A stretch of 34,330 nucleotides of DNA from a virus. Numbering within the stretch: the stretch's first letter is position 1; every line of letters starts with the position of its first letter. Shown in pieces: positions 3,446 through 32,635 of the stretch. The notes beneath the pieces were generated by a model that saw nothing but the letters and a program-made list of their open reading frames with translations, searched no databases and was not told the DNA's origin. The translations under genes were made by a program, and so were the position numbers. The stretch is taken from the IMG/VR virus record IMGVR_UViG_3300007640_000113, positions 1 to 34,330 of that record; one strand, written 5' to 3'.

Positions 3446-5866
3446 ATGCTCATCAAAGAAAGTGAAGTCGAAGTAAGTTCAAGTGGAATGTTGTCAACAG
3501 ATGACCTAGGTATTAACTTGGACGGTGTTATGTTCGACAGTCTAATTAATGGTATCTACTCAAATAAGATTGCAGCAGGTATCAGAGAATACTCCACTAA
3601 TGCCAAGGATGCACACAGTGAAGCTGGGATTCCAAACAAACAGTTTGAAATTGGTCTTCCAACAGAAGACAACGCATACTTCGAATGTCGTGACTATGGT
3701 GAGTCCTTAACGCATGAAGAAGTGGTACACACATTCTCGGTGCTAGGAAAGTCAACTAAACGGAACTCTAATGAAGTTACAGGTTGTCTTGGCCTAGGGT
3801 CACAGTCAGCATTTGCGTATGCAAACATGTTCTCTATCACAACATGGAAAGATGGAAGAAAAAGTGACTATTCATGCTATAAGGGTGCAGATGGACGACC
3901 AAAAGTCTCAAAGATTACAGAAGTACCTTCATCAGAGCCTACAGGTCTAAGGGTATCCTACGCGGTAAAGCAAGCTGATGTAGACGCATTCAACCAAGAA
4001 GCATCTATACAACTAATGGGATTCGATCCACAACCAATAGTAACAAGAAAAACTAGAACATATAAACCGATTAACGAAAAAGAACTGTTAATTGAGGGAT
4101 CAGATTGGAAACTTTTCAAAAAAGAAAATGATTCAAGAGAACAAGCAATCGCAGTACAAGGATCAGTAAGCTACCCGATAAATGCAAATAATAAGAACCT
4201 AGTATCTACAATGGAAAGAAAATACGATTACAAAAAGAGGACCCCCTACAACTACAACTATTCAGCGTCAAATACTGAAAATATGTACGTTAAAATCGAA
4301 AGGTTACTTGAAAAGACTAGTATAATAGTTACATTTCCAATAGGTCAACTAAAGATGACTACAAGTAGAGAGTCATTGGGTTATGATGACTACACATGCC
4401 TAAATATTATTAACAAACTAGAAGATGTGATAAAAGACATTGAAGTATCTCTAGATAAAAAGTATGAGAACTTTGATAACCTAGGTGATGCTCGTAGGTT
4501 CAATGAACTATCTAATAAAGAGGGTGGGTTGAAAATATTAGAGAATATTACTGGATTAAATATAAGAAAGTGGAAAGGTCAAGAAGTATATAGCACATTC
4601 GTGCTAGAAGAAAGAGAAGATGAAAAAGACCTTAAAACTTATATAGGTGAAAGACAATACTCTAATGGTAGATCACAAAATTATCTAAAAGAAGATACAA
4701 GGGTTGAAGGATCGGTAAGGTTAATATATTCGGATTCTTATTCTACTAAATTTGGAGAAATAAAATCATCGTTCACTTACCCGACCACAAGACACAATGG
4801 TTCAAGAAAAGTTCTACAGATATGTAATATGAGTATAAGTAGTTTGGATAAAACTCACATTCTATTTGAAGTAAGTGACGAGTGTATCAAGTTATCTAAA
4901 AATAATCTAATGAGAGAATTCTGGTACAAATTCAATCAAGATAATAAATTTCTATGGGTAAAAGTTAGAACCCTTTCAGATGCGAGTAAGTTTCTAAAAC
5001 TGATCCACAATAAAAATGATACAAGGGTACATTATCTTCATAAACAAAAACCGCTTAAGCTAGTAAAAGGGGTAAATACATCATCGAATACAGGAACATT
5101 AACTGAGCGTACATTTAGATATATAACTCCATTACCTTATTGCATGAATAGCGGGATAGTAAGTGGAAGCTTTGATACAGTAAAAGGTAATATACCAGCT
5201 ATATTCTATTTTAAGAATAAATTCTATCTTACTCAGGATGATCTTATTAATGATATAAATGGTCAGAATGAGGGTACGACAAGAAGCAATCTATACGAAT
5301 GGATAAAAGACGTAGATGATAAAATAGCAGTTATAAATAGTAACCAGATTAAGTTCTTCAAAGATAATAGAAAACTATTTATACCTATAGAAGACTACAT
5401 GAAGAGTAAATGGATTAAGGATAACCCAAACTGGAAAAAAAGTTATGAAACCGTTAGCGGAATGACCAGTGAGGAATCATCTACAGAATTAAATCTAATC
5501 AAAAAGCTGATAAGGTTAGATACAAATCTAGGTATAAGGTTAGATAGGTTCAAAGACTCGTTATATAATGACAATAAGGTAAAAACTATAAAAGAAAAAC
5601 TATATGCGAGAGTGGAGTACCAACGTAAACCAAAAGACTTCCACATAATAATGGAAAAAGAAATAAAGAATGCGGAAAAGGCTAATCATAAATCTACATT
5701 AAAAAGAGAAAACTTAGTGATTGATTATATAAAAGATAAGCCAACTCTAAAATTTATGATGACGATGAATACCAATACCATATACGGATCAGGAGAAGAG
5801 AACTACAATGCTGCAATGATAGAAGTATTCAATAAAGAAAACAAAAAATGGAAAGAGGTTAAATAA
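3446..5866 (+). CDS. rIIA-like protein, GHKL-type ATPase fold
   Basis: At 806 residues it is somewhat longer than T4 rIIA (725). The N-terminal third carries the GHKL ATP site: E48...N52...D55 in REYSTNAKDAH, D83-x-G85 in CRDYGES, and G116-x-G118-S in LGLGSQSAFAY. This arrangement and the opening GVMFDSLINGIYSNK are typical of rIIA homologues. In T4, rIIA and rIIB affect lysis inhibition and growth in lambda lysogens; the biochemical role is unresolved. The C-terminal two thirds are poorly conserved and notably AT-rich. AAAGGG lies before ATG 3446. The stop overlaps the start of the rIIB-like gene (TAATG). Confidence 0.87.
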   Translation: MLIKESEVEVSSSGMLSTDDLGINLDGVMFDSLINGIYSNKIAAGIREYSTNAKDAHSEAGIPNKQFEIGLPTEDNAYFECRDYGESLTHEEVVHTFSVLGKSTKRNSNEVTGCLGLGSQSAFAYANMFSITTWKDGRKSDYSCYKGADGRPKVSKITEVPSSEPTGLRVSYAVKQADVDAFNQEASIQLMGFDPQPIVTRKTRTYKPINEKELLIEGSDWKLFKKENDSREQAIAVQGSVSYPINANNKNLVSTMERKYDYKKRTPYNYNYSASNTENMYVKIERLLEKTSIIVTFPIGQLKMTTSRESLGYDDYTCLNIINKLEDVIKDIEVSLDKKYENFDNLGDARRFNELSNKEGGLKILENITGLNIRKWKGQEVYSTFVLEEREDEKDLKTYIGERQYSNGRSQNYLKEDTRVEGSVRLIYSDSYSTKFGEIKSSFTYPTTRHNGSRKVLQICNMSISSLDKTHILFEVSDECIKLSKNNLMREFWYKFNQDNKFLWVKVRTLSDASKFLKLIHNKNDTRVHYLHKQKPLKLVKGVNTSSNTGTLTERTFRYITPLPYCMNSGIVSGSFDTVKGNIPAIFYFKNKFYLTQDDLINDINGQNEGTTRSNLYEWIKDVDDKIAVINSNQIKFFKDNRKLFIPIEDYMKSKWIKDNPNWKKSYETVSGMTSEESSTELNLIKKLIRLDTNLGIRLDRFKDSLYNDNKVKTIKEKLYARVEYQRKPKDFHIIMEKEIKNAEKANHKSTLKRENLVIDYIKDKPTLKFMMTMNTNTIYGSGEENYNAAMIEVFNKENKKWKEVK

Positions 5867-7065
5867 TGTTTATCCCTTATGTAATAAATAAAGTGAACGA
5901 AACAGAACAAATGACGGTATACCTCGGTGGTGTACCAACAGAGTTCGACAGTTCACACCCTAAATACCATGAGATTAAAAATAATATCTCAACACTTACG
6001 GAAAAGGAAGTAAGAGACCTGATTGATTCAGCTAAACAACTTCGTAAAGCAGTAAGTCGATTTGGTAACGTAAAAGTAGAAGATGGTCAAGTAACATACA
6101 AAGGTGAAGAAGTACACGGCTTCCTTGCAGACCGTATGGTACAAATGCTAAAAGACGGTATGGATATCAAGCCTTGGGCTCTATTCCTAGAGAACCTGAA
6201 AAAGAATCCAGCTAAACATGCAGTAGACGAACTGTACGGATGGCTAGAACATGCAAACATGCCAATCACTGACCGTGGACGCTTTCTAGCCTACAAGAAG
6301 GTAAAGGATGACTATACATCGTACCGAAACAACCCAGATGGAACATCGTTTCATAATGACATTGGTACGTTCGTATCTATGGATCGTAACAAAGTTGATG
6401 ATGATCGTACACGGACGTGCTCATCTGGACTCCACTTCTGCTCATGGGATTACCTACCAAGCTATATGGGTAATAGAGGTAAGGTAGTAATCCTAGAGAT
6501 TAACCCTGAACACGTTGTATCAATCCCTACGGACTATAATAATGCCAAAGGACGAGCAGCGGGTTATATGATTATCGGTGAGATTCCTGAAGATAAATGT
6601 GAACATGCATTCGAGAATACACCATATGTAAGTGTAAATGACATCGAATGGAGTGACATTGAAATCGACGAAGATATTGATTATAGTGAAATCGAAGATG
6701 GATGGTATGACGATATCGGAGACGACTACGATGAAGAGTTAGATTACGAAAGTGGCTATGTAGAAGGACTCTATGCAGGTAAGAATGGGTACAGTGACGT
6801 AGATATGGACCTATCAGAAGATTGCTTCCATACTTATTTCAGTTACCAGCAATATCTAAATGGATTTAAGGATGGATGGTATAATGGGAATAAGTATGAA
6901 GCAGTAAAAGAACCAACATTACCACTAAGCTACAATGACTTTGATAACTACGAGAACTACAAAAACTCTAATTCGCTTATTTCAAGAATAATTAGAGAAA
7001 TGAATCTATCACAATATGAACTTGAATTACTAACTAAAATCTGGGTATCTACAGATAATGTATAA
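5866..7065 (+). CDS. rIIB-like protein
   Basis: A 399-residue protein, longer than T4 rIIB (312). The central block from ITDRGRFLAYKKV through VSMDRNKVDDDR, TCSSGLHFCSWDYL and SIPTDYNNAKGRAAGY is the conserved core of rIIB homologues. After it comes a very acidic stretch (about residues 262-290), then a YxxGYxxGLYAG / NGFKDGWYNG pattern that often occurs in phage proteins of unknown role. It starts on the last base of the rIIA-like stop codon, so the two are translated together as in T4. A strong terminator follows at 7085-7137. Confidence 0.87.
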   Translation: MFIPYVINKVNETEQMTVYLGGVPTEFDSSHPKYHEIKNNISTLTEKEVRDLIDSAKQLRKAVSRFGNVKVEDGQVTYKGEEVHGFLADRMVQMLKDGMDIKPWALFLENLKKNPAKHAVDELYGWLEHANMPITDRGRFLAYKKVKDDYTSYRNNPDGTSFHNDIGTFVSMDRNKVDDDRTRTCSSGLHFCSWDYLPSYMGNRGKVVILEINPEHVVSIPTDYNNAKGRAAGYMIIGEIPEDKCEHAFENTPYVSVNDIEWSDIEIDEDIDYSEIEDGWYDDIGDDYDEELDYESGYVEGLYAGKNGYSDVDMDLSEDCFHTYFSYQQYLNGFKDGWYNGNKYEAVKEPTLPLSYNDFDNYENYKNSNSLISRIIREMNLSQYELELLTKIWVSTDNV

Positions 7066-18103: not shown

Positions 18104-18610
18104 ATGAAAGATATATGGATAACAAGTGACACACACTTCAACCATGAAAATATTCTTAAGTTTGAGGACAATCTGGGTAATAAGATAAGGGATTTTCATT
18201 ACGTACAAGAGATGAATGAGACAATCATACAAAATTGGAACTCAGTAGTAAAACAAGGGGATAAAGTATACCACCTTGGGGACGTAATGTTTGGTAGTAA
18301 GGATTGGTTTGCATTGAATTGGCCAAGGCTTAATGGATCAAAGAACTTAATAGTTGGAAACCATGACGATATCAAATACTTAAGTAGTGGTGGATTCTTT
18401 AAAAAGGTGTATATGTGGAGACTACTAAAAGAGCACAATATGCTCCTTACTCACGTTCCAGTACATGAAAGTAGTATAAGAAAAGTAGAGTTTAATGTAC
18501 ATGGACATATTCACAGACAAAAAAGTCCAACCAAGAGACACATAAATGTATGTGTAGAAAAAACTAATTACACACCTATAAATATAGATGAAGTTCTGAA
18601 GGGTAAATAA
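18104..18610 (+). CDS. calcineurin-like metallophosphoesterase
   Basis: A 168-residue protein with the full two-metal set: D9-x-H11 (SDTHFNH), G59-D60 (HLGDV), G85-N86-H87-D88, H117 (LTHVP) and G134-H135-x-H137. It belongs to the small bacterial and phage phosphoesterases; the substrate could be a cyclic nucleotide, a dinucleotide signal or a nucleic-acid end. Host-defence signals such as cyclic nucleotides are a possible target, but that is speculation. AAAGGA precedes the start. Its stop overlaps the RNA polymerase start (TAATG), so the two are made together. Confidence 0.9.
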   Translation: MKDIWITSDTHFNHENILKFEDNLGNKIRDFHYVQEMNETIIQNWNSVVKQGDKVYHLGDVMFGSKDWFALNWPRLNGSKNLIVGNHDDIKYLSSGGFFKKVYMWRLLKEHNMLLTHVPVHESSIRKVEFNVHGHIHRQKSPTKRHINVCVEKTNYTPINIDEVLKGK

Positions 18611-20988
18611 TGCAGGACATAAAAGATTACTTACAGAAGAAGATAGATAGGATCAGCCCTGACAACAGAAAGTTCAATGGGACTGGAGCTACGCTACTAA
18701 GGTTCGATAAAAGTGATAACGACCTAGATGATTATATCAACTCATGCATTCAATCTATAATGTCTTCAATGACTCGTAGTGAGATAGCTGGGATGGCTAA
18801 GTTAACACAAGTATCAACTGCTATTGGACAACGTATACTCTCAATGATGGGAGATAACGATGCTCCTTTCGATCAGAGAGTAAGACTAGGTGATCTATTT
18901 ATAGAAGCATTATACTCTCTGAACTATATCAACGTATATAGGGACCCCTCATTCTCTGAACACAACAGAGAGGCTCCCTATGTAATACACCTAGAGTCAA
19001 GGTGGTCAGAACTAGCTGAATACCCACTAGTAAGATCAAAGAAAGACTTAAGGGGAACATTCTCTGAACCACAGAAAGCGACAAGAGCCTGTCTAAAACG
19101 AGATAAGTTCACAAAAGAAGATTGGGCAGATATCTCAGAGTCTCAACATATATCAGCGGTAACGAAATTACAATCAGTCGCTCTAAGGATTAACCTAGAT
19201 GTACTTGAAGCGGTAAAGCTTAACCAAGACAAGTTCATAACTAATGGTAATGTCCAGATACCGAATGAAGGTAACAAGAAACGAATGGATGATCGTTACT
19301 ATGAGTGGAGACTTGAGGTAAATAGAGCTAAGGGTAAGGAAAGTAAGTTCTTAGATAAGAAAAAAGAGAACTACATTAAGGAAGCAGAACTATGGAACAA
19401 GAAGCTAATTGCACTGAAGGCACAAAGTAAGAAGACAGCCTTCACATACACATTGCAAAAGGCTGAACTCTTAAAGACAGAACCAGAGTTCTATCAGAGT
19501 ATCGAACTAGACTACAGAGGAAGGTTCTACTACTCAGAAAGCTTCTTCAACTTTCAAGGGACTGACATGGCTAGAGGACTCATTGAGTTCACAGAAGGAA
19601 AGCCAATAGATGAACGAGGAAGAAGGTGGCTTGCGATACATACAGCGTCTTCTTATAATGAATCCTACCTAATAGATGAGTTACCTGAATGGTGTGAAGA
19701 AGACTACAAAGAGTATCTAAAAGACGAAGGTCTGGACTCAATCTCTGTCGATAAGATGACTATGAATGATAGAGCTAATTGGACAGAGAACAATTACGAG
19801 AGGATAAAGGGTTATGTCAACCGAAAAGAAATACCAATTAAAGCAGAAAAACCTGTTGTGTTCTATGCATGCTGTGTGGAATGGACAGACTATCTTAATG
19901 ATCCCACAGGTCACATATCAAGACTTCCAATCCAAATTGATGGTTCAAACAATGGATGGCAGCATCTTGGAGCGATGTCGAAAGACAGTAAAACTGGTTC
20001 ACTTGTGGGCCTCGTTCCGTCTAAAATCCAAAGGGACTTCTATGTATCTACTGCTAAAGAACTAATAAAAATTATGCCTGATTGGTTCGCTGAGAAGCAG
20101 ATGCCAATGAAGCATATTCGTAAGGGAATTAGTAAACGTGGTAGTATGACAAGGGCTTACTCGGCTGGTGAAAAGACTATGGCTACCAATATGTATGCCG
20201 ATTGTTACCAAGAGGACTACACAGAGAAGTATGGGATCAGTGTTGATGATTGTAATAAACTATCACATAACCTGATAACGGCCATCAACAGAGTATGTCC
20301 CGGACCTCTGGAAACTATGTCATACCTACAGAAGCTTGCATCATTTGAGATAGGAACGTACACAATATATCGAGATGGGAAGGTAGCATCTAAAGCCTAC
20401 CAGAAGATCAAGAAGATAATCAAGGAACTCAAATGGAAGAAGATTAAGTCAGAAGAAGAACTAATTTCTCTGTCAGATGCAATCAACGAACAATCACAGT
20501 TTGAATCTAGACTTGTACATGGTAATGGTTCTAATACACTGAGGTGGGTTACTCCATCAGGGTTCTATGTGATCTATGAGAACTTCATTCAGAGATCAAT
20601 AAAGTGTAAAGGGACTATTAATGGCATCGGAAGGATTACACACGTAGCCTTCGAAAGAACTGAGATGCCTAATGTAAAAGGATACATGAGTGGTATCAGT
20701 CCTAACTTCGTACACTCAATGGATGCTGCCCACATGGCTATCATAATTGATAACTGGGAAGGTACATTCACAGCAGTACATGACGCCTTTGCATCACATG
20801 CATCAGACATGGATGAACTGCTGAGAGTAACAAAAGAAGCATTCATAATGATGTATAATAAGGAAAACTACTATGATGAAATCGAACAAACAATGCTCAG
20901 TAACAGTGAGAGTCTCACAGTCGAGCAGCCAAGTATTGGTGAACTTGATGTTTCAGAGATACGAGACTCAGATTACTTCTTCGCTTGA
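18610..20988 (+). CDS. single-subunit DNA-directed RNA polymerase, T7 type
   Basis: A 792-residue enzyme (T7: 883). D301-Y-R-G304-R305 is the DxxGR motif. Motif A is D444 in IDGSNNGWQH. Motif B has K509 and, eight residues later, Y517 in SKRGSMTRAY; the T7 Arg627 position is K505, next to R504. FVHSMDAAH (700-708) precedes motif C, H724-D725 in VHDAF. The C-terminus DYFFA resembles the DFAFA foot of T7 polymerase. It would transcribe middle and late genes from phage promoters. Unlike T7, the gene comes after the replication genes. It is not the only polymerase here: compare the virion gene at 21870-25496. Confidence 0.95.
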   Translation: MQDIKDYLQKKIDRISPDNRKFNGTGATLLRFDKSDNDLDDYINSCIQSIMSSMTRSEIAGMAKLTQVSTAIGQRILSMMGDNDAPFDQRVRLGDLFIEALYSLNYINVYRDPSFSEHNREAPYVIHLESRWSELAEYPLVRSKKDLRGTFSEPQKATRACLKRDKFTKEDWADISESQHISAVTKLQSVALRINLDVLEAVKLNQDKFITNGNVQIPNEGNKKRMDDRYYEWRLEVNRAKGKESKFLDKKKENYIKEAELWNKKLIALKAQSKKTAFTYTLQKAELLKTEPEFYQSIELDYRGRFYYSESFFNFQGTDMARGLIEFTEGKPIDERGRRWLAIHTASSYNESYLIDELPEWCEEDYKEYLKDEGLDSISVDKMTMNDRANWTENNYERIKGYVNRKEIPIKAEKPVVFYACCVEWTDYLNDPTGHISRLPIQIDGSNNGWQHLGAMSKDSKTGSLVGLVPSKIQRDFYVSTAKELIKIMPDWFAEKQMPMKHIRKGISKRGSMTRAYSAGEKTMATNMYADCYQEDYTEKYGISVDDCNKLSHNLITAINRVCPGPLETMSYLQKLASFEIGTYTIYRDGKVASKAYQKIKKIIKELKWKKIKSEEELISLSDAINEQSQFESRLVHGNGSNTLRWVTPSGFYVIYENFIQRSIKCKGTINGIGRITHVAFERTEMPNVKGYMSGISPNFVHSMDAAHMAIIIDNWEGTFTAVHDAFASHASDMDELLRVTKEAFIMMYNKENYYDEIEQTMLSNSESLTVEQPSIGELDVSEIRDSDYFFA

Positions 20989-21869: not shown

Positions 21870-24800
21870 CTAGTGCGCCCAGAATTGAAGTGCTCCCAGT
21901 CCGGTTCTCTGTTCCTGAGCTAGAACCTTGTCTCGTAGAATTTTACGATTACGATTAGTTTTCTCAGTGAACAGCTGAAGTCTACCCATGAGTTGAATCC
22001 TCTTTTCAACAGCAGAAATAATTGCTAAAGCCTCTCTAGAAGTAATTAACTCTGGGACGGAATCACCATTCAGGAAAGAATCACTATTTATATTACTAGA
22101 ACTGATTTCATTGAAAATCTCATAGAGTTCAGCTTGTAGGATTGAAGCCTGAGTACTGACGTACTTCTGATACTCACTAACTCTATCCTTAGCTATCTGA
22201 GGTTTATCGCTATCCTTACGAGCCATAATATTATTATCTCTATAGACGACATTACGATCAGGATCGATTGGGAATGCCGCAGAAATAAACGCCTTCATGG
22301 CGCTCCTACGGGCTATAAGATTACCACCAACAGGAGTCCACTCTGGGTCCATAAGAGAGTGCATGTAATCGAATGTACCATCCTTAAACGTCCACGTCTT
22401 ATCAGGAGCGGACTCAAGGACTCTTTTTGTATCATCCTTGAACTTTTGGTACTCTTTCTTAGCCTCTTCAATGAAGTTCCAATCACGAGTAGTAATATCT
22501 ACGAAGTTCTTATTGACTTCTTTTAACACTGAATGATAGCTATTAGCATCAACCTTATACGCATCATAGATTTGGAACACATAAGGCTCACCATTCACAG
22601 AGTCATCGGTAATAACTTTCCAAGAGTTACCTGAGAATGTACGAGTTACAACTGCGGCATCCATAGACTGCGTAGGGATAACAGACGAACGACCACGAAC
22701 GTATCCAGCGGCCTCACCGTCCTTCTTAGCAGCACTAGATGCTCTCATTGGAGAATCTTGTAGATTCATTGTTGCATCGACATTATCACTACGAACTCTG
22801 ATCTTAGAAGTCTGAGTTTGTGACTCATCAGGACGACCTTGTCCGAGAAGAATACGGTGTCCAGATGGACCTCTGATAGAGAACAGCTTGTCGAACATGG
22901 CATGCATGTAACCCACGGAGCGCATAACGCCTCTAGCATTAAATGTATCAGTTCCAAAGATTTCGAACAGAGCATGTACTACACTATCATGTGCAGCGTC
23001 CACTAAGTTATCCAGAGTGATACCAGAAGCTTCAAGAGATTCAATCTTGGAATTGATATCTGGCTGTGCTGTACGAAGTTCAGGTATGTGCTTCCTGATC
23101 TCTGCCTTTAGGCCAGCAAGCTCTTTACCATATGGGAATACCATAGTAACTGTCTTGTTGATTGGTCTAAATGAGGCTACAGCCTTAAGGACATCTCTGA
23201 TGTTCTCTGTTTTACCAGAAGCCTTATCAGAAGGTATAGTAGGAGTAGGTGTAGCGATAAGTCTATCAAGAATTATCTCTTCCATCCAATCTCTGAGGTC
23301 ACCATTATTAACTGCTTCCTCAGAACCATCATCACGAAGAACACCTACCCTGTACGCCAACTGCAAGTTACCCAACATAGCGCCTTGGTTAGCGACACCG
23401 TTGGTCTTACCGTCGATATAACCGTTTAAGTGTGTCTTGAATGGCTTACCTTGATCCATAGCATCGTTGAAGTTCTTGAAGTCTATCAGGGCATCAATAG
23501 CTGCGATAGCATCCTCTCCCTTTCTCTTTAGGAAGGGTGTAAGGTTCTCATCTTTCTTAATGAGCATAGTGAACTTCTGTAGACTCTGAGCCATATCAGG
23601 TGTGGCAGTACCATTAGCAATAGCTTCCATAGCAGGTTCCAAGGAACTAGCTGGGAATGCCTCATTGAGAGCATCTTCAAGAATCTTACCCCAGCTATAG
23701 TACATAGCTCGGTTATCTTGTAGATCAGCCATTCTACCCTTTGGAAGAAGGTTATCCTTACCGAAGTTAAGTGCTGCGATGTTCATGTATGCATCATACA
23801 CTCTACCACTCCTACCTCTTATGATAGCTGGCTGTATGGCACGAGTAACAGCACGAACAATCTTCTTACGAGTAGGATTGAACTCAGTCTGCTGTACCAT
23901 TTGACGACCAGCGAGAGGTTGCATAGCATATGTCAGGTAGTTTACACCTTTACGATACATAGATAGTGTCTTAATATCTGATGCTGCATCATTCTTCTTC
24001 ATCCCGGTGATCTTGACCGCTGTATCAACAGCCTGAGCGTGTTCCATACCATCGAGGTCCATCTTTTCGCGGACTAGTGTATCGAAGGATTCACGGCCAA
24101 GACCAAACCCATCACCAAACACATCATTTGGATCGCCTATTTTACCAAATAGAGTGGGAAACAGCAACGTCATTGCTACACGCATACGTCGATTATCCAC
24201 TACGTGACCAACACCTTGTTGGTTATAGATGGCTTCTTCAATCTCTGATAGTGTTGAATACGATGGGTCTTTACTATTACCACCAATAGCTCCCTTCTTA
24301 CGGAAAGCTGGTCTAAGCTGCGCCTTATCAGCTTGTAGACCGTCATGTGCTGGGTGGCTCTCTGGAGCAATATTGATACCGAGTGCTTTCTGACGGAACT
24401 CCCTTGTATGCTCAAGTACATCAGCGCCATAAGGAGTCAGTCTGAATCTCCAAGGTGCGATCTCACCATTTGCATCGGGTCTTCCCTTATCATTTACTCG
24501 TACCTTTTCCATTGATACCATCTCAGGATTAGCTTCAGCGAACGCCAGAAGGTGTTGCATACCTAAATCTTTGTTCTGTAGACCAGACATCTTAGATGCT
24601 GTAGTCTTACCTTCCTTTTCAGCATTCCACCAAGTACCTATAGCCCTACCTGTGCGTTCTGCAGCATCGGCTGGGTTGATAAGCTCGGTAGAGTACATAC
24701 CCTTACCTTCTTGATCATTATCATCGATGATATCATCCTCATCGAGGATATTAACCTCATCCTGAGCACCTAGGAACATCATATCGAGTTCGTTCTCTGT

Positions 24801-25496
24801 GGCGATCTGAGCTGTAATCAAGAAACGAGGATCAGGTGTGGCGAAGCCAGAAGTAGGATCGACAACTAGAGCATCAAGATTACCAGACATTGTCTGAAGA
24901 ATTGTATTCTTCTTATCTTCGACACTCTTAACGATCTTGTACCGCTCTCTCTTAGCTGCATTACGTTCTTCTTCATCTAGAGCCAAATCAATCTTCTTAT
25001 TGGCAGCGATGTAAGCCTCACGGTTAGCCGTGTCCACCTGTGTCCCTGAGAATGTAACGCTACCCTCAGAGCTATTTGATGGGTCCATACGAGCAGCAGT
25101 CCGCTTGGCTCGGTTGAGCATTGCAGCGGGTGGTGACTCGTTGGTTAGTTTGTAAGCTGGTGCCTGTGGCTGAGGTATACTACCCTCTGTCTGTTGACCA
25201 GTTGACCTCCAATCATCGAACGTAGGATTTAACTCTCCAGTACTAGCTGGACCCACGCGCTGACTAATCGGAACAAGTGTATCATCCTCATTGAAACCAG
25301 TAACACGAGGGCTTAGTGGCTCACGAGTTTCCTGTTCTACAGGAGCAGCCTCGGCCTCTCCCTGAAGGTCTACTGACTCAGAGAGAGAACCGATTGTGCT
25401 TTGTAAAATAGTCTTTAATGATTCACTAGGTGTTGGCGTGGATGTCTCGCCTCTTTGTAGTTTCTGAGCTTCGAGCCCAGCGCCTATTCTAGCCAT
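21870..25496 (-). CDS. putative virion RNA polymerase, N4 vRNAP-like, compact form
   Basis: A 1208-residue protein, last of the late operon. It carries single-subunit RNA polymerase motifs. Motif A: IDGKTNGVANQGAML, D695. Motif B: R777-x3-K781-x7-Y789-G790, the same R-K-Y spacing as T7 (627/631/639) and N4 vRNAP (666/670/678). SMDAA at 944-948 equals SMDAA of the 792-aa polymerase. Motif C is IYDAY with D978, where T7 has HD. A DxxGR-like SGRVY (R565) is followed by NFGKD; PLAGR at 527-531 is an alternative. About 130 N-terminal residues are low-complexity. N4 vRNAP is about 3500 residues, so this is a minimal version. It is probably packaged and ejected to start early transcription. AAGGAG precedes ATG 25496. 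Confidence 0.85.
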   Translation of the reverse strand: MARIGAGLEAQKLQRGETSTPTPSESLKTILQSTIGSLSESVDLQGEAEAAPVEQETREPLSPRVTGFNEDDTLVPISQRVGPASTGELNPTFDDWRSTGQQTEGSIPQPQAPAYKLTNESPPAAMLNRAKRTAARMDPSNSSEGSVTFSGTQVDTANREAYIAANKKIDLALDEEERNAAKRERYKIVKSVEDKKNTILQTMSGNLDALVVDPTSGFATPDPRFLITAQIATENELDMMFLGAQDEVNILDEDDIIDDNDQEGKGMYSTELINPADAAERTGRAIGTWWNAEKEGKTTASKMSGLQNKDLGMQHLLAFAEANPEMVSMEKVRVNDKGRPDANGEIAPWRFRLTPYGADVLEHTREFRQKALGINIAPESHPAHDGLQADKAQLRPAFRKKGAIGGNSKDPSYSTLSEIEEAIYNQQGVGHVVDNRRMRVAMTLLFPTLFGKIGDPNDVFGDGFGLGRESFDTLVREKMDLDGMEHAQAVDTAVKITGMKKNDAASDIKTLSMYRKGVNYLTYAMQPLAGRQMVQQTEFNPTRKKIVRAVTRAIQPAIIRGRSGRVYDAYMNIAALNFGKDNLLPKGRMADLQDNRAMYYSWGKILEDALNEAFPASSLEPAMEAIANGTATPDMAQSLQKFTMLIKKDENLTPFLKRKGEDAIAAIDALIDFKNFNDAMDQGKPFKTHLNGYIDGKTNGVANQGAMLGNLQLAYRVGVLRDDGSEEAVNNGDLRDWMEEIILDRLIATPTPTIPSDKASGKTENIRDVLKAVASFRPINKTVTMVFPYGKELAGLKAEIRKHIPELRTAQPDINSKIESLEASGITLDNLVDAAHDSVVHALFEIFGTDTFNARGVMRSVGYMHAMFDKLFSIRGPSGHRILLGQGRPDESQTQTSKIRVRSDNVDATMNLQDSPMRASSAAKKDGEAAGYVRGRSSVIPTQSMDAAVVTRTFSGNSWKVITDDSVNGEPYVFQIYDAYKVDANSYHSVLKEVNKNFVDITTRDWNFIEEAKKEYQKFKDDTKRVLESAPDKTWTFKDGTFDYMHSLMDPEWTPVGGNLIARRSAMKAFISAAFPIDPDRNVVYRDNNIMARKDSDKPQIAKDRVSEYQKYVSTQASILQAELYEIFNEISSSNINSDSFLNGDSVPELITSREALAIISAVEKRIQLMGRLQLFTEKTNRNRKILRDKVLAQEQRTGLGALQFWAH

Positions 25497-25510: not shown

Positions 25511-28500
25511 TTAACGTTTGATGTCAAAGTCAACTCCTGCTGCATTCTGGACCATCTTAGTGAATGGACCGAGAACAGGTGTTGCCCTCATAGCGTTGTA
25601 CTGTGCCATGTCAGTGTTGCCTTCATATGCGTAATCAGCGGCCTTGAGTAGTCTACGCATAGGACCCATTGCTGGCATCTCATCCGTAACCATCTCGAAC
25701 GTATTCTGAATCATTCCATTATCCCTCTTCTCGAAGGTTGGCCATATGAAGTTTAGTGCTCTTTCTGACTGACCAAGTAGGCCAGATGAATTGACAGCAC
25801 GACGAAGTTTCTCAGTACTGTTAAGGTAAGGTGATGGTTCACCGTACTTCAACCAGTCTTTCAGATACTGTGATGCGAAACCCATGAAGATCATGGATGT
25901 CATCATTGCAAACGTATTGTACTTCATTGCAGGACTACCACGTTTCACATAGTCACCCCAGAGTCTAGGGATGTGGTTAGCTGTAAAGGTAGCTATATAA
26001 CCATTGAACTGAGTGAATAGTGCTAACCTTGGGTCTTGGTATAGCAGAGGGCGATTAGCCGTGCCGGGAAGAGCCACTGTCTGATTAATGAAGTTGTACA
26101 TAGCCTGATCTTCATACTCTTGGTACTGTTGTTTCTGCTTAGGAGTCATAGAACCTTCGTCCATAGCGTAGAGAGTGATATACTTATCAACTGGTACACC
26201 GAGATTGAGTAGCTCCTGTCTAGAGAACCTATACATCTCACTCTTGGGATCACTATTCTTAATGATCTCTATGTGATCTCGTGTGTAGTCACCAAATTGA
26301 GCTAGTCTCATAGCTCGGTTAGCGTTGGTAAGGTCGTGTAGGAAGTTAGCCTTGAAGAAACGATCAACCCAAGTCTTGGCCCAATCGCTCTGCTCTGTAG
26401 CACCAACTGTAGATGCTGCACCAGCCTCTTGTGTCATATAACCAAGATGCTGTAGAACCTTCATGTTCTCCCCCTCTGGGATATACTCTCTTCCTGTAAA
26501 GACTTCATTACCTACTCTATGTAGATACCTACCCATACCCTTAGCAAGCTCCATACTCATAGGCATGATATTACCAAAGATTTGTTTCTGGGTTAGTCCA
26601 CCCGCTGTCAACATCAACTCTACAGTAGAGGAGAGTGCTGATAGTGGTAGTGATGTAGCTAGTGACCACAACAATATAGTACGTTGAACACCAATAGCAC
26701 GTTCACCATATGAACCTTTAGGTGGTCTCTTATAGTTACCTGACTGAGCCTCTAGATACTGCTGGATGGACTTAGCCATCATATTGATTTCTTTCTTAGG
26801 GACACCCTGCTTCTCAGCTTCCTTGAGTAGCTGTGTTACTCTCCAGTTATCCTTACCCACATAATTGTGGAATGTCTCAAATCGTGCAGCCATACGAGCC
26901 CCTTCCTTGAAGTTATGGAATGGGTCTTGATGGAAGAACTCAGTGAACTTAGGGTGCTGTGAGAGTGCCATAGTACGCTTCTTAGCTTGTGTAGCTGGAA
27001 TGCCTTTAGTAAGTAGATCGAATACTCCTTCATCCAGACCATCTAGTGGTTCACCATCTAGTATCTTATTAGTAAGGTCTGTAGCAGCAGACTTAGACAT
27101 GGATGCCTCAGAACGAAGTAGCAGTTCGAAGTCAGCACGTTTATCTGAGACGATCTCTCTGTTTATGGCCTTGAACTTACCGAAGTAGTTTCTAAGCCGC
27201 TTGATCTTCTCTTGCGGTTGATAAGGTATAGTCATTCCAGTAATCGGGTCGATAGAATCCTTACCATTCTTGTTCCATGCAATGTTCTGACGTTGACGCA
27301 TGATAGAAGCTGCCTTCTGTCGTTGCTCAACAAAATGACGAACCATGTTCTTATTAGGGTCCTTAGAGTACTTGTGCCATACATCGCTCTCAACTCCGTC
27401 CCACCGAGACCAGTCGAATGCAGCATTAGCTTGTTGTTCTGACATCTTAGGGTTAGCTTCTAGGAAAGCATTGTAGGCTGTATCTACTTGATTTATGATA
27501 CTTCCAAACTTAGCCTTAGACGCAGAGTCTCTAGCACCAATAACTGGATTACCCTTAGCTAGTCCTCTGTAGAATATCTTCTCAGAGCTACTATCACCAA
27601 TTAGGTTAACATAGGACTGATTGAGGAAGTGCATAGACTCCTCGTAAGTTCTACCAGCCTTAAAGCGACCAACTGTTGCGCCAAACATAGCACCTAGTTG
27701 TCTGTAAGAGGTACTCTTTATCAGAGAGTCCTTAGCCATTCTAGCCCGCATCATCCCACGCCATAGCATAGGTAAGTTCTTGAATGAGTCTACGGCTCTC
27801 TCGGTCATATCGCGACCCTTATTCTCGAGTACGTGCTCCGAAGCCATGTCAATAATCTCAGTACCAGTCTCATCACTACGCTTCATACTGTCCAAGGTTT
27901 CCCCTATCTCAGAGTTACCTTCTAGTTTAGCCAACTCACCTTCGAAAGAACTTCTATTTGAGTCTCCACGGTTCCAAGCAGCATTGGCCCAAGAACCAGT
28001 TTCAGCCACGCCACCAGCACCGCCAAGTGAGCCACCAAGCGCCCCACCAGCAACCGCTGCGTTGGTGATACGATCAAGGAATTCAGAATTGAATTCACCG
28101 TGGTCAAGGATACCGAAATTCTCCTCGTTCCAGTCTTCACCAATCTGAGCCAGAGTTTCTTGAGCAGCTTCAGTAACTGCCTCCGACCCAGCACCCTTAG
28201 CAGCACGATTGAGCAGAGCACGAGTAACATTTCTTGCACTAAGTTGTTTAGCAATGATGTTATCTGCATCTTGTACCAATCCCATTAGTTCTGTTTTTGT
28301 AGCCTTACCGATAGTGGCTCTAGCCTGTGTACGAGCAGAAGCAGACGATACACCCTTAGCAACTAATCTAGCCGTAAGTACATCTTCCCCTTCCTTAAGT
28401 ACCGCCTTAAGTGTCTTACCACCAACCTGAAGACCTTTCAGACCTACTCTATCCATAGCTGCTTGTGCCAGTCCAGAGGACATAGCTACCTGCCAGTTCT

Positions 28501-29533
28501 TCTCATCTTGTGAGTTGTAGACCTGACCAGCATAGACTGCTGTAGTTGACGAAAGTCCGACGATTGTACCACCGATTGCACCTAGGACACCACCGACTGC
28601 AGTACCAAGTACTGGAGTTACCGCTGTACCAATTACTGAACCAGCAACACTACCTGCGACTGCTGTTGCAATCGTATTGGCCATGTATGGTGAGGACATT
28701 GCTGCGTTGTTAGCTACATAACTAAATGCATTACTAATAGAGTCAACATCCTTGTAGTCGATAAGTACTTCAGGCTTCTTAGCAAGCTCTCCCTGCTTAT
28801 AAGCTACAGCTATTTGTCCTTGTAGCTCCTTCTCACGGTTTCCCGTAGCGAACCCTATAGCTTGTTTCATGCCAGAGAATCCAGCACTCATACCGAGTAG
28901 GGCTGTGTCGAAGGAAGTACTAAGTGGTGATAGCGCCTCATTGTCCAGTGTTCTATCAAGATGACGAAGTGTTACGCCAGCATGTAGGTCAGGATCATAC
29001 TCTGACTCATCTAGAGCCAGTGTCTTGAAGTTAATATCACCATTACTATCACGTATTGAGTCTGAGATAACGTCGAAAGCTTCCTGAGATGCTTCATCTC
29101 TCTCGGCTCCCGCGTTTCTCTGTGCTGTACCAATAATCTTCTGATCGATGTAGGTTTCGTCAGAGTATGGGTTAGCTCGTGTTAATCCTTCAGAGGCCAG
29201 CTTGTAGCTGAGTCTCTCACCAGTATCAGGGTTAACCATATCACCGATAGAACGGCCATATTTATCTTTCTTTCCTGATCTGTAGACATCTGTGAAACCA
29301 CCTTCCTGAGCAATCTTAGCCACACCTTGATGGTAAGCTTGTCCTGCTGCATGGTAGTCGGTATCATCAGTGTAGTCACTTGAGTGAGCTACCTCTGGTG
29401 TGTTGATGTTGTCAATACGAATGGACTCTCCGCTTGAAGTACGGACTGTATCACCATCGATGAACATGTTGTCACCAGCAGAAGCGTCGAACAACTTTCC
29501 TACAATTTTCTTAGGGTCTAGGGTAGAGCCCAT
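25511..29533 (-). CDS. large ejection-type virion protein with N-terminal SNase (thermonuclease) domain
   Basis: A 1340-residue protein. Residues 20-150 match staphylococcal nuclease: IDGDTV with metal ligand D28, R39 in IRIDNINTPE, E47, and R94 in DKYGRS, i.e. the catalytic Arg/Glu/Arg. N44 replaces Asp40. Residues about 286-332 form a long Gly/Ala/Val hydrophobic stretch, and another Gly-rich stretch lies near 490-515; these suit insertion into a membrane, as in podovirus ejection proteins of the T7 gp16 class. The rest is long and helical. It sits between the 634-aa protein and the polymerase-like protein, with AAAGGAGAT before ATG 29533. A nuclease in the ejected set could cut host DNA or trim peptidoglycan-bound nucleic acid; the target is unknown. 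Confidence 0.85.
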   Translation of the reverse strand: MGSTLDPKKIVGKLFDASAGDNMFIDGDTVRTSSGESIRIDNINTPEVAHSSDYTDDTDYHAAGQAYHQGVAKIAQEGGFTDVYRSGKKDKYGRSIGDMVNPDTGERLSYKLASEGLTRANPYSDETYIDQKIIGTAQRNAGAERDEASQEAFDVISDSIRDSNGDINFKTLALDESEYDPDLHAGVTLRHLDRTLDNEALSPLSTSFDTALLGMSAGFSGMKQAIGFATGNREKELQGQIAVAYKQGELAKKPEVLIDYKDVDSISNAFSYVANNAAMSSPYMANTIATAVAGSVAGSVIGTAVTPVLGTAVGGVLGAIGGTIVGLSSTTAVYAGQVYNSQDEKNWQVAMSSGLAQAAMDRVGLKGLQVGGKTLKAVLKEGEDVLTARLVAKGVSSASARTQARATIGKATKTELMGLVQDADNIIAKQLSARNVTRALLNRAAKGAGSEAVTEAAQETLAQIGEDWNEENFGILDHGEFNSEFLDRITNAAVAGGALGGSLGGAGGVAETGSWANAAWNRGDSNRSSFEGELAKLEGNSEIGETLDSMKRSDETGTEIIDMASEHVLENKGRDMTERAVDSFKNLPMLWRGMMRARMAKDSLIKSTSYRQLGAMFGATVGRFKAGRTYEESMHFLNQSYVNLIGDSSSEKIFYRGLAKGNPVIGARDSASKAKFGSIINQVDTAYNAFLEANPKMSEQQANAAFDWSRWDGVESDVWHKYSKDPNKNMVRHFVEQRQKAASIMRQRQNIAWNKNGKDSIDPITGMTIPYQPQEKIKRLRNYFGKFKAINREIVSDKRADFELLLRSEASMSKSAATDLTNKILDGEPLDGLDEGVFDLLTKGIPATQAKKRTMALSQHPKFTEFFHQDPFHNFKEGARMAARFETFHNYVGKDNWRVTQLLKEAEKQGVPKKEINMMAKSIQQYLEAQSGNYKRPPKGSYGERAIGVQRTILLWSLATSLPLSALSSTVELMLTAGGLTQKQIFGNIMPMSMELAKGMGRYLHRVGNEVFTGREYIPEGENMKVLQHLGYMTQEAGAASTVGATEQSDWAKTWVDRFFKANFLHDLTNANRAMRLAQFGDYTRDHIEIIKNSDPKSEMYRFSRQELLNLGVPVDKYITLYAMDEGSMTPKQKQQYQEYEDQAMYNFINQTVALPGTANRPLLYQDPRLALFTQFNGYIATFTANHIPRLWGDYVKRGSPAMKYNTFAMMTSMIFMGFASQYLKDWLKYGEPSPYLNSTEKLRRAVNSSGLLGQSERALNFIWPTFEKRDNGMIQNTFEMVTDEMPAMGPMRRLLKAADYAYEGNTDMAQYNAMRATPVLGPFTKMVQNAAGVDFDIKR

Positions 29534-29551: not shown

Positions 29552-31456
29552 TTATTTCTCAGAATTTGTAGTAAGAGTAACCTTGAGGAATGAGTAGAAC
29601 CCATCCTTCTTTGTATACTCATTCTTATCTACAGGATCGAGAGCTTGATATGCCTTATAAGCATCAGTCATGAATGTATTAATAACAGTACCACGATCTA
29701 GCTTACCTTCTTTAGCTACATACTCTTCTTCTTGAGACAACCAATTAATGATGTCTCTATTCAGTCCAGCAATTTGATCTGGCTGTAGCTTGTCTCCGTT
29801 AGAACGTAGTTCCTGTGTCCACTTAACGTCTGGACGCATATACACGATCTGGGAGTCGATGAAGGGCAGTAAGCTCTTTACTGGAGCATTACCATTAGCT
29901 TGTGACCAACTCTTAGCTGAGTCATAAGCATTAGCTATAATACGAGAACTAACACCAGAGTCCACATCAATTCCAAGTTCCTGACGGAATGATTCAATAT
30001 AGTCTTCAGCTATATTAGCCTCTGCTTCTGCTGATGCCTGTAGGAATGGAGTATTGTATTCACCTTCCACTTCAGCATCTGCACTAATCTTCTGAGTAAT
30101 AACCTTACTATGAAGGTCAACTGACTTCTTACGGATAGCCGCGATACCAGTTGCATCCTTTGGATCGTTTGGATCATAAACCATCTCAGCGCCAACCTCG
30201 TTTCCTTGGAAGTCGATGTAAGTCTTATTACCAGTTGCGTTGTTAGTAGCTTCGTAAACGATCTTACCATTCTTAGTTACCTTTCGCTTAGTGCGATCAT
30301 ATGTAACACCAGACTTAGCAGGATCAGTTACAGCAACAAGTTCACCTATATTACCAGATAGGCGATACTTCTCGATAGACTTGGGTGTGTACTTACCCTG
30401 ACCAGCTAGTCTGTTGGAGATGTCAGAACGATTAGTAAGTCCCTCTGCAGCTACACCGAAGCTCCAACTCATGGAAACCCCGTGGTCGTAACCAGCAATA
30501 CGACTACCAACATACAGTAGGGCAAAACGATTAAGGTCCTGACCTGTGATCCCGAATGTACGATTGATCCAAGACATAGCCTTAGCCCAACCAGATGGGT
30601 CTTCTTTCTTTACTGTATCTACATCTGCCGCAGTAACTTTAACATTACCACCGCTTGGTGTTGGGACAGGCGGCTCGGAGTCTACCATAGGAATACCATC
30701 TGGTCCCTGTGGAGTAACAAGCTCATCAGCTACCATTTGGCTCTGTTCAGCCTCTTCAGCAGTAATAGAAGATGGATCGATATCAGTATCAACTACTGGC
30801 TTACCTTCCATGATAGCTCGCTGACGCTGACGTACTTTGTTAGCCTCTGCAATATCTTCCATGTTTCCGGGATTTACACGATCACCATTCTCATCGATAA
30901 CTCTTGAACGAGTTTTAGGATTTCTAGTTTCATGCTGTAGATCACTGTAGCCACCATATACACCCTCATAGTCTCCCATTGAGAGCGTTGAGGAGCCGAA
31001 TGATTCCATATTATACTGGTCTAGGTAATTCTGAATACCCTCATCAGTTGATAAATCCTTAATTGTCTCATTCTTTTCTGGTGGAATGACGCTCTCTTCG
31101 AACATCTCTGGTACTACAGGTGATTCAGGTGCTTCAAGGTCTGGGATACCAGTAGCTATCTTAGGAACTTCATCATATGTAGAGTTCTTGATTTCTACCT
31201 GTCTGTTCATCGCATCTACTCCCTTAAGCCCTAGGTTCCGTAGTTGAACTAGTGGGTTTGTCTCTCTAGGTGGTAGTACAATATCATTCCCTTGACCCTG
31301 TGGCATAGGAACCTGATACGGAGTTGCCATTTGTTCGTTAATCATATTAGGTGTGACTAACTCTTCCCCTTCCTCCAGTTTTACCATAGAAGGAGATTGA
31401 TTCATTGGTACTTGTTCCCTCTGGAATATATTACCAATCATTTTAGAAAAGTCCAT
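29552..31456 (-). CDS. putative internal virion protein, 634 residues
   Basis: I recognise no family. The first half is low in structure and rich in Pro, Glu and Gln (e.g. VPMPQGQGNDIVLPP). A hydrophobic helix-like region near 290-330 (FGITGQDLNRFALLYVGSRIAGY) and helical C-terminal parts follow. Size, position between the muramidase and the SNase protein, and one-base overlap with the former (TAATG) make an internal or ejection role (T7 gp15-like place) the best guess. AAGGAG precedes ATG 31456. Confidence 0.7.
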   Translation of the reverse strand: MDFSKMIGNIFQREQVPMNQSPSMVKLEEGEELVTPNMINEQMATPYQVPMPQGQGNDIVLPPRETNPLVQLRNLGLKGVDAMNRQVEIKNSTYDEVPKIATGIPDLEAPESPVVPEMFEESVIPPEKNETIKDLSTDEGIQNYLDQYNMESFGSSTLSMGDYEGVYGGYSDLQHETRNPKTRSRVIDENGDRVNPGNMEDIAEANKVRQRQRAIMEGKPVVDTDIDPSSITAEEAEQSQMVADELVTPQGPDGIPMVDSEPPVPTPSGGNVKVTAADVDTVKKEDPSGWAKAMSWINRTFGITGQDLNRFALLYVGSRIAGYDHGVSMSWSFGVAAEGLTNRSDISNRLAGQGKYTPKSIEKYRLSGNIGELVAVTDPAKSGVTYDRTKRKVTKNGKIVYEATNNATGNKTYIDFQGNEVGAEMVYDPNDPKDATGIAAIRKKSVDLHSKVITQKISADAEVEGEYNTPFLQASAEAEANIAEDYIESFRQELGIDVDSGVSSRIIANAYDSAKSWSQANGNAPVKSLLPFIDSQIVYMRPDVKWTQELRSNGDKLQPDQIAGLNRDIINWLSQEEEYVAKEGKLDRGTVINTFMTDAYKAYQALDPVDKNEYTKKDGFYSFLKVTLTTNSEK

Positions 31457-32217
31457 TATTCTTTCTCCTTCTTACGTTTAATTTTGAATGACACTGGTCC
31501 AGAGAATTGGACAGGTCTTAGTGGTGGTGGTGCAGCTACCTTTGGCGGTGGGTCAGACTGGCCACCTCCGAATAGTGAGGACACAGCCGACTCTATAGCC
31601 AAATCTTTGGCTGAAACCAGAATTCCGTCTATAGTCTCATTACCTGTTATAACTGGTACTGAATCTGGTACTGGTGGTACTGAATCTGGTACTGGTGGAA
31701 CTCCCTCTGCTGAATTGTATTCATCAGATGCACGACCTTCTCTCGGAACTCCACTTACAATAGGTGGAACATAGTCTTCCCCCAGATAGCTTGCTGAGTT
31801 TCTCATGTGGTCTTGGAAGTTAGACGATAGAACTTTATCGGTAACTGATCCCGGAGCACCACCACTATTCTCGTCAGATGCGTTAACTGCATCAATATTA
31901 CCAGCATTAATAGCAGCATACATTGGCAGTGTTCCCATACCAGACTTCAGTCCGCGATCAGATAGATACTGTCCTGCAGCCTTAACTTGGTCTGATACAG
32001 ACATATCCTTAGATACACCATATTGTTTTCGTTGTGGTTCACCCCATTGGATAAGACCACGATGCTCACCCCACTTTGTAGTAGGGCCTTTCTGCCAAGG
32101 ATCATAGGTTCCACCAGTCTCATACCCGATAATACCGAGTAGGTCTTGTGGTGACCATCCTCTGGCTGCTGCTTCTGCCTTTACGGCTTCAATCATTTCT
32201 GCTGATGGTTTACCCAT
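31456..32217 (-). CDS. virion-associated lysozyme-like muramidase
   Basis: Read from ATG 32217 (253 residues), one base after the previous stop and with AGGTAAG before it; the frame is open ten codons upstream to a TTG. Residues 20-70 hold the lysozyme-like site: GIIGYETGGTYDPWQKG with E33 as the likely acid, then HRGLIQWGEPQRKQYG. This matches the transglycosylase/lysozyme segment found in podovirus internal proteins and would open peptidoglycan during DNA entry. Behind it is a Pro-rich linker with a perfect 21-bp tandem repeat, then a C-terminal part without known motifs. Confidence 0.82.
   Translation of the reverse strand: MGKPSAEMIEAVKAEAAARGWSPQDLLGIIGYETGGTYDPWQKGPTTKWGEHRGLIQWGEPQRKQYGVSKDMSVSDQVKAAGQYLSDRGLKSGMGTLPMYAAINAGNIDAVNASDENSGGAPGSVTDKVLSSNFQDHMRNSASYLGEDYVPPIVSGVPREGRASDEYNSAEGVPPVPDSVPPVPDSVPVITGNETIDGILVSAKDLAIESAVSSLFGGGQSDPPPKVAAPPPLRPVQFSGPVSFKIKRKKEKE
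31655..31696 (-). repeat. 21-bp perfect tandem repeat in the muramidase linker
   Basis: Bases 31655-31675 and 31676-31696 are identical. On the minus strand they code for two copies of a PVPDSVP-type heptapeptide in a flexible linker. Confidence 0.92.
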
Positions 32218-32218
32218 G

Positions 32219-32635
32219 TTACTTACCTGCCAGCTTTTTACCACCAATCAAAGCAGCACCAATAGCTAGTGGAGCAGTGATGGGGTTAGTCATTGCAGAG
32301 GCCATAAGTCCAGAGCCTAATCCAGATGCAGCAGCGCCACCAGCAGCGGCTCCGGTTGCAGCGGCTCCTGCACCAGCGGCTCCTGCTCCTAACGCACCAG
32401 CAGCACCAGTAGCGAGTGGGGCAGCTGCAGATGCGGCAGTTGGAGCCAGCTTAGCGAAGAGTGCTTCAGCGCCTTTAGTTGCAAGTTTATTTGCTCCTGC
32501 CGATGCAGCTTGCATAGCGATTTTCTCTGCAGGTCCTACCTGACGTGTAGGTGCTTCTGCCTGTGCTGCATTATGCTGCATTGTTGGCATAAGAGGAGCG
32601 GCTGGACCTCGTTGTTTTAATTTTTCGAAAGCCAT
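32219..32635 (-). CDS. small Ala/Gly-rich membrane-active virion protein
   Basis: A 138-residue protein; residues about 65-130 are nearly all Ala, Gly, Ser and Leu (APLATGAAGALGAGAAG... SAMTNPITAPLAIGAALIGG). This could span or disturb a membrane. Position upstream of the muramidase in the ejection gene group suggests an internal virion protein like T7 gp14 in role, not in sequence. AGGAGG precedes ATG 32635. Confidence 0.7.
   Translation of the reverse strand: MAFEKLKQRGPAAPLMPTMQHNAAQAEAPTRQVGPAEKIAMQAASAGANKLATKGAEALFAKLAPTAASAAAPLATGAAGALGAGAAGAGAAATGAAAGGAAASGLGSGLMASAMTNPITAPLAIGAALIGGKKLAGK

Follow-up and report, generated by a model that had tools for sequence, protein, structure and literature searches.

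A staphylococcal nuclease (SNase, thermonuclease) domain was found at the N-terminal tip of a 1340-aa ejection-type protein encoded in a 34,330-nucleotide stretch of DNA of a marine short-tailed phage (IMG/VR record IMGVR_UViG_3300007640_000113, positions 1 to 34,330; hereafter the window). The domain is almost certainly a genuine SNase, and the protein that carries it is, as far as homology indicates, very probably an ejected virion protein. A search for SNase fusions in other phages showed the fusion not to be a one-off: it was also found in gp34 of Roseobacter phage CRP-7, CRP-7-like contigs, further viral contigs, phage phiA008 and a Pasteurella testudinis provirus.

Identification of the SNase domain

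The 1340-codon ORF starts with ATG, and the interval 29140-29533 on the minus strand, in which a thermonuclease domain had been proposed by a sequence-only reading, corresponds to its residues 1-131 (Table 1). A Pfam search matched PF00565 at residues 38-145 (E 2.6e-4; 21.9 bits compared to a curated cut-off of 21), and PHROG endonuclease family 452 was matched at residues 30-121 (E 8.4e-6). Because these scores were modest, independent support was sought. A profile made solely from the other homologues, with the window protein left out, matched residues 22-127 at 78 bits. An AlphaFold2 model of residues 1-170, based on an alignment of six sequences, showed a mean pLDDT of 57 overall and of about 76-83 in the core, where the order of the secondary structure elements (E-E-E-H-E-E-H) was that of SNase. 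In a Foldseek comparison of the model with PDB, the best hits were all SNases (E 4.6e-5, probability 1.00). VIA-align superposed it on 1snd with a Z of 8.5 across 96 residues, a Z near 8 being weak evidence on its own, and extended-Tudor structures, which contain an SNase-like fold, were also among the VIA-align matches. A phmmer search of PDB with the whole 1340-aa protein gave noise only. The SNase fold was accepted because the uniform list of SNases, the sequence motif and the profile hits agreed, and the modelled N-terminal domain has the OB-fold topology of SNases. The proposed fold was thus borne out by structure prediction and superposition.

Residues D28, R39, E47 and R94 are present as the sequence-only reading had stated and correspond to D21, R35, E43 and R87 of SNase; D26, which that reading did not list, is the equivalent of D19. 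Of the catalytic set D21, D40, R35, E43 and R87, all but D40 are kept in the window protein, Asn44 occupying the D40 position. The reading had singled out this Asn as a replacement of the usual second Asp. The replacement is there, but it is no special feature: in 25 ordinary SNases with a complete motif, taken from Pfam-selected loci of 56 gammaproteobacterial genomes, 13 had Asn and 12 had Asp at this position (the count refers to this Pfam-based sample, an earlier pattern-based one being biased by its search pattern). Asn44 was accordingly rejected as a mark of an inactive or unusual enzyme.

Table 1. Features of the SNase-tipped gene and its late-cluster neighbours in the window
Feature	Position	Strand	Basis
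1340-aa SNase-tipped ejection-type protein, whole gene	25511..29533	-	ORF; collinear homologues CRP-7 gp34, L021, L022, L098, L099, L101, L102
SNase domain core, residues 22-120 (D26, D28, R39, N44, E47, R94)	29174..29470	-	Pfam PF00565; leave-out profile; AlphaFold2 and PDB search; residue conservation
Gly/Ala-rich hydrophobic segment, residues 256-350, putative membrane insertion	28484..28768	-	Hydropathy; Gly-zipper below cut-off; conserved in homologues
C-terminal virion-structural module, residues 885-1235 (PHROG 6958)	25829..26881	-	PHROG E 4.8e-23; also in KPP25, phiR18, LUZ24-like PaP3/Pa223, phiA008
1208-aa probable virion RNA polymerase, single-subunit type, adjoining	21870..25496	-	Weak PHROG RNA polymerase match; motifs A, B, C in 7 homologues
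634-aa protein, upstream, same late cluster, possible ejection/tunnel partner	29552..31456	-	Synteny in L021, L022; CRP-7 gp35 at equivalent place; role from context
263-aa lysozyme-like virion protein, TTG start	31456..32247	-	Weak Pfam Phage_lysozyme2 and PHROG matches

Conservation of the catalytic residues

In an alignment of 12 SNase tips, as distant as about 30% identity, eight of 99 positions were invariant (D26, D28, T29, G35, R39, E47, G93, R94), and five of these eight are the equivalents of the catalytic D19, D21, R35, E43 and R87. The chance of five named sites all falling within eight invariants is 7.8e-7, with the caveat that the alignment is also anchored by the shared motif. 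Compared to CRP-7, the SNase was the best conserved segment of the window protein (35% identity, against 10-32% in the other segments). Within the CRP-7 clade, dN/dS of the SNase was 0.02-0.06 and below that of the rest of the protein in five of six pairs, these ratios being rough since synonymous sites are near saturation. Judged from the sequence, the SNase tip is probably catalytically active. Against an active form stand the distant members L098, L101 and L102, in which the loop (DADT, DPDT, DLDT) or YGR is altered, the Arg found at the D40 position in L098, and the pair formed by the window and contig L021, in which the SNase diverges faster than the rest of the protein (dN 0.38 compared to 0.28).

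The altered loops, the Asn or Arg that stands in for D40 in part of the tips and the faster change of the SNase in the window clade would also suit an OB-fold that binds DNA or RNA without cleaving it and serves to guide, tie or clamp the phage genome in packaging or ejection. Such a domain would pose no risk of self-destruction in the capsid, and ejection proteins can bind genome ends, as indicated by the title of a paper on phage 80alpha gp44 (PMC7290940). We regard this as quite unlikely, since the five catalytic residues, which are superfluous for pure binding, are invariant in all 12 sequences in spite of their distance, and Asn at D40 is common among ordinary SNases.

Distribution of the fusion

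With the full protein as tblastn query, the sole match in the annotated phage collection was CRP-7 gp34 (QBQ72827; 1368 aa). This collinear homologue aligned in three blocks, one covering the SNase (E 3e-10), one the Gly/Ala segment and one the C-terminal module, and it contains the full SNase motif (IDGDTV, VRFGFGDAGE, DPYGR), despite which Pfam did not call SNase and the protein is deposited as hypothetical. Scans of viral contigs added the fusion in CRP-7-like contigs, in L021 and L022, and in the more distant L098, L099, L100, L101 and L102, of which L100 duplicates the N-terminus of L099. The KPP25- and LUZ24-like relatives were reachable only via intermediate homologues: L022 as query led to KPP25, phiR18, a Vibrio phage and Aeromonas phage phiA008, and phiA008 as query led to more than 100 phages with the C-terminal module, mostly LUZ24-like Pseudomonas phages. 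An N-terminal SNase of its own was detected in phiA008 (pA_gene0066; Pfam E 7.9e-7, 29.9 bits), and the same kind of start was found in a 2345-aa protein of the Pasteurella testudinis provirus, which is itself also present as an IMG/VR contig. A second provirus of this type was not found among 369 sampled genomes of the Pasteurella class.

A profile search detected no SNase domain in phiR18, PaP3, Pa223, SCYZ1, CRP-810 or the Vibrio phage, and tblastn with the SNase domains alone gave almost nothing in phages. Because the SNase is present in diverse fusions and missing in phiR18, PaP3 and others, it appears to be an old addition to a widespread virion-protein module, and one that the module can do without. 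A match by chance, or a young fusion that arose by accident and has no function, might be read from the Pfam score barely over the cut-off and from SNase-tipped relatives that score below it or escape detection. It is refuted by the fold match to SNase, by the fusions in CRP-7, phiA008, the Pasteurella provirus and several diverse contigs, and by strong purifying selection in the CRP-7 clade, and we consider it extremely improbable.

Virion module, hydrophobic segment and gene neighbourhood

The hydrophobic Gly/Ala segment that had been described behind the SNase was confirmed by hydropathy at about residues 262-350 (29% G+A, 6% charged). It sits directly behind the SNase, is kept in homologues and bears a weak resemblance to a Gly-zipper (Pfam match below cut-off). 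The proteins of KPP25, phiR18 and PaP3 that share the C-terminal module are annotated as virion structural proteins, and from this homology, together with PHROG 6958, the designation as virion protein in the sequence-only reading draws its support. On the same grounds we infer virion location and ejection, and entry into the cell together with the phage DNA may well be presumed. Thus, of the earlier claim of an SNase fused to a membrane-active ejection protein, the fusion stood by fold, family, catalytic residues and a gene order shared with peptidoglycan-hydrolase genes and the gene of a probable virion RNA polymerase, while ejection itself is kept as presumptive.

The window protein has putative membrane-active segments and is encoded in a late cluster with a cell-wall hydrolase; such neighbours are typical of podovirus ejection proteins (PMC8954989, PMC12633501). 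The adjoining 1208-aa protein, encoded downstream, is a probable virion-type single-subunit RNA polymerase. In seven relatives the Asp of motif A (D695), K781..Y789-G790 of motif B and the Asp of motif C (D978) were invariant, D978 lying in IYDA and not in a T7-like HD. The identification relies on these motifs because the AlphaFold2 model, with a mean pLDDT of 46, was too poor to be of use and profile comparisons were low or negative, with low probability only for the phage's own other RNA polymerase and no detectable profile match to CRP-7 gp33. The latter protein (L004:18970-22677) lies at the same place in CRP-7 and contains RNA polymerase-like stretches, e.g., AIHDALITG in its C-terminal part. 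A second RNA polymerase gene, encoding a 792-aa protein recognised by Pfam, is located at 18610-20988, and the phage would hold two RNA polymerases, like N4.

The place of the 634-aa protein is taken in CRP-7 by gp35, which is fused to a lysozyme-type domain. The peptidoglycan-hydrolase gene ahead of the ejection genes was seen to swap, being lysozyme-like in the window and in L022 and replaced in L021 by a Hydrolase_2 cell-wall hydrolase (L021:5340-6104; Pfam 4.5e-17). The L099 protein carries in one chain a lysozyme-like domain (Pfam 19.8 bits, below cut-off) and, immediately C-terminal of it, the SNase.

Possible site of action

SNases require Ca2+, which is scarce in the cytoplasm and plentiful in the periplasm of a marine bacterium. 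Our best explanation, taken as a whole and held with somewhat less than even confidence, is an envelope-held, virion-delivered nuclease acting where the phage DNA enters, with the periplasmic side as its likeliest location. The protein would belong to the large internal virion proteins that podoviruses eject and would have a catalytically competent SNase as its N-terminal tip; it would be packaged with the genome and ejected together with the lysozyme-like protein, the tunnel-type protein and the virion RNA polymerase. The Gly/Ala segment would insert into the envelope of the host. Kept at the entry site, where Ca2+ is plentiful, the SNase would cut nucleic acid outside the phage's own channel, e.g., DNA of a competing phage or envelope-exposed host nucleic acid. 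The activity, compartment and substrate of the tip are what we infer here. If the tip is active, the chances are slightly in favour of the periplasmic side, because SNase needs Ca2+ and because the lysozyme-like domain precedes the SNase in L099; the periplasm is no less likely a site than the cytoplasm. An entry-site nuclease is further favoured by the larger relatives with HExxH metallopeptidase motifs and by CRP-810 with a neighbouring ADP-ribosyltransferase-like domain of the polyvalent type.

The sequence-only reading had suggested that the nuclease enters the cell with the phage DNA and might degrade host DNA or defence plasmids, or supply nucleotides. Along this line, the SNase would reach the host cytoplasm and degrade the host chromosome, RNA or resident plasmids for takeover or nucleotide supply. 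Ejection proteins of other podoviruses do get to the cytoplasm, and polyvalent proteins bear effectors thought to be cytoplasmic, including ParB-like DNases (PMC5512222). The phage also encodes ribonucleotide reductase and thymidylate synthase, potential users of nucleotides. With the Ca2+ that SNase needs being generally scarce in the cytoplasm, a domain order in L099 that suggests a tip facing the periplasm, and the phage's own DNA exposed, this proposal seems rather unlikely.

The main difficulty for any active form, the entry-site nuclease included, is the safety of the packaged genome: a Ca2+-dependent nuclease packed next to the DNA of a particle that is surrounded by Ca2+-rich seawater would endanger that DNA unless latent or shielded, and latency in the particle needs explaining. 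It also counts against an entry-site nuclease that relatives live without the SNase domain. On the doubtful side is the reading that podoviruses of a widespread group have in their virions an active nuclease that is tethered to the envelope and acts at the entry site as soon as infection begins, with the own genome safe in the channel; if true, it would be an injected first-strike or superinfection-exclusion weapon against rival or host nucleic acid.

Comparison with known systems

SNases, ejection proteins and polyvalent proteins are each already known. The enzymes known from ejection proteins are chiefly wall hydrolases and RNA polymerases, to which polyvalent proteins add peptidases, ADP-ribosyltransferases and ParB-like DNases. 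The window domain agrees with the SNase family (PF00565) in fold, in the equivalents of D19/D21/R35/E43/R87 and in the DGDT and YGR signatures. Whereas free-standing SNases are small and, in the sample inspected, often have an N-terminal hydrophobic leader, it lies at the end of a virion-type protein of 1340 aa in which no signal peptide is obvious. Like T7 gp16 and N4 gp50 with its partners, the window protein would, by homology, be a large internal virion-type protein with a putative membrane segment, and its late cluster resembles theirs: a probable virion RNA polymerase recalls N4 gp50 (PMC12633501), and a peptidoglycan hydrolase recalls T7 gp16. It differs from them in that its enzyme module is a nuclease, and a nuclease is mentioned neither in a review on ejection proteins (PMC8954989) nor in the N4 preprint (PMC12633501). 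The large virion structural proteins of KPP25/phiR18 and of the LUZ24-like phages PaP3 and Pa223 share the C-terminal module but, as far as detected in phiR18, PaP3 and Pa223, not the SNase.

The nearest concept is that of polyvalent (co-injected multidomain) proteins (Iyer et al., 2017, PMC5512222), which are likewise large, multidomain and delivered with the phage DNA, delivery being presumed here from homology. These carry several effector domains or a zincin metallopeptidase per chain, whereas in the window protein Pfam recognised one enzyme domain, the SNase, and its sequence contained no HExxH motif. Close relatives are more like them, having either the HExxH motif of metallopeptidases or an ART-PolyVal-like domain next to them. 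SNase is not mentioned in the main text of the polyvalent-protein survey (PMC5512222). The giant proteins of phiA008 (L030:6706-12858; 2050 aa) and of the Pasteurella testudinis provirus (L037:9977-17011; 2345 aa) both combine an N-terminal SNase with HExxH (HELGH) in a polyvalent-protein architecture, and these SNase-tipped relatives connect the ejection and polyvalent ideas. In Roseobacter phage CRP-810, gp35 (L033:8559-14609; 2016 aa) matched ART-PolyVal weakly (E 7e-5, below cut-off) and contained HExxH twice, and its gene adjoins a homologue of the C-terminal ejection module.

A Caudovirales protein of similar size (UniProt A0A6J5NQ80; 1342 aa) is already named 'Staphylococcal nuclease (SNase-like), OB-fold', so the fusion had been noticed by annotation. 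The papers found did not treat this protein or CRP-7 gp34 as a nuclease delivered by the virion, and a literature search for virion or ejection proteins with an SNase or thermonuclease, mostly outside subscription papers, gave nothing relevant. Since distant relatives from several phage groups retain the catalytic residues, phages with such a tip seem to deliver a DNA- or RNA-cutting enzyme at infection. A conserved SNase beside the genome raises the question of how a nuclease is carried next to the phage's own DNA and at what it is aimed, which is open to bench work since CRP-7 and phiA008 are isolated phages.

Elsewhere in the window, a tRNA-Arg (TCT) gene was found at 1858-1934 on the plus strand; CRP-7 likewise has a single tRNA-Arg (TCT) (PMC6918029). 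Adjacent RIIA- and RIIB-like genes (3446-7065, plus strand) were identified by PHROG matches in this podovirus-type genome.
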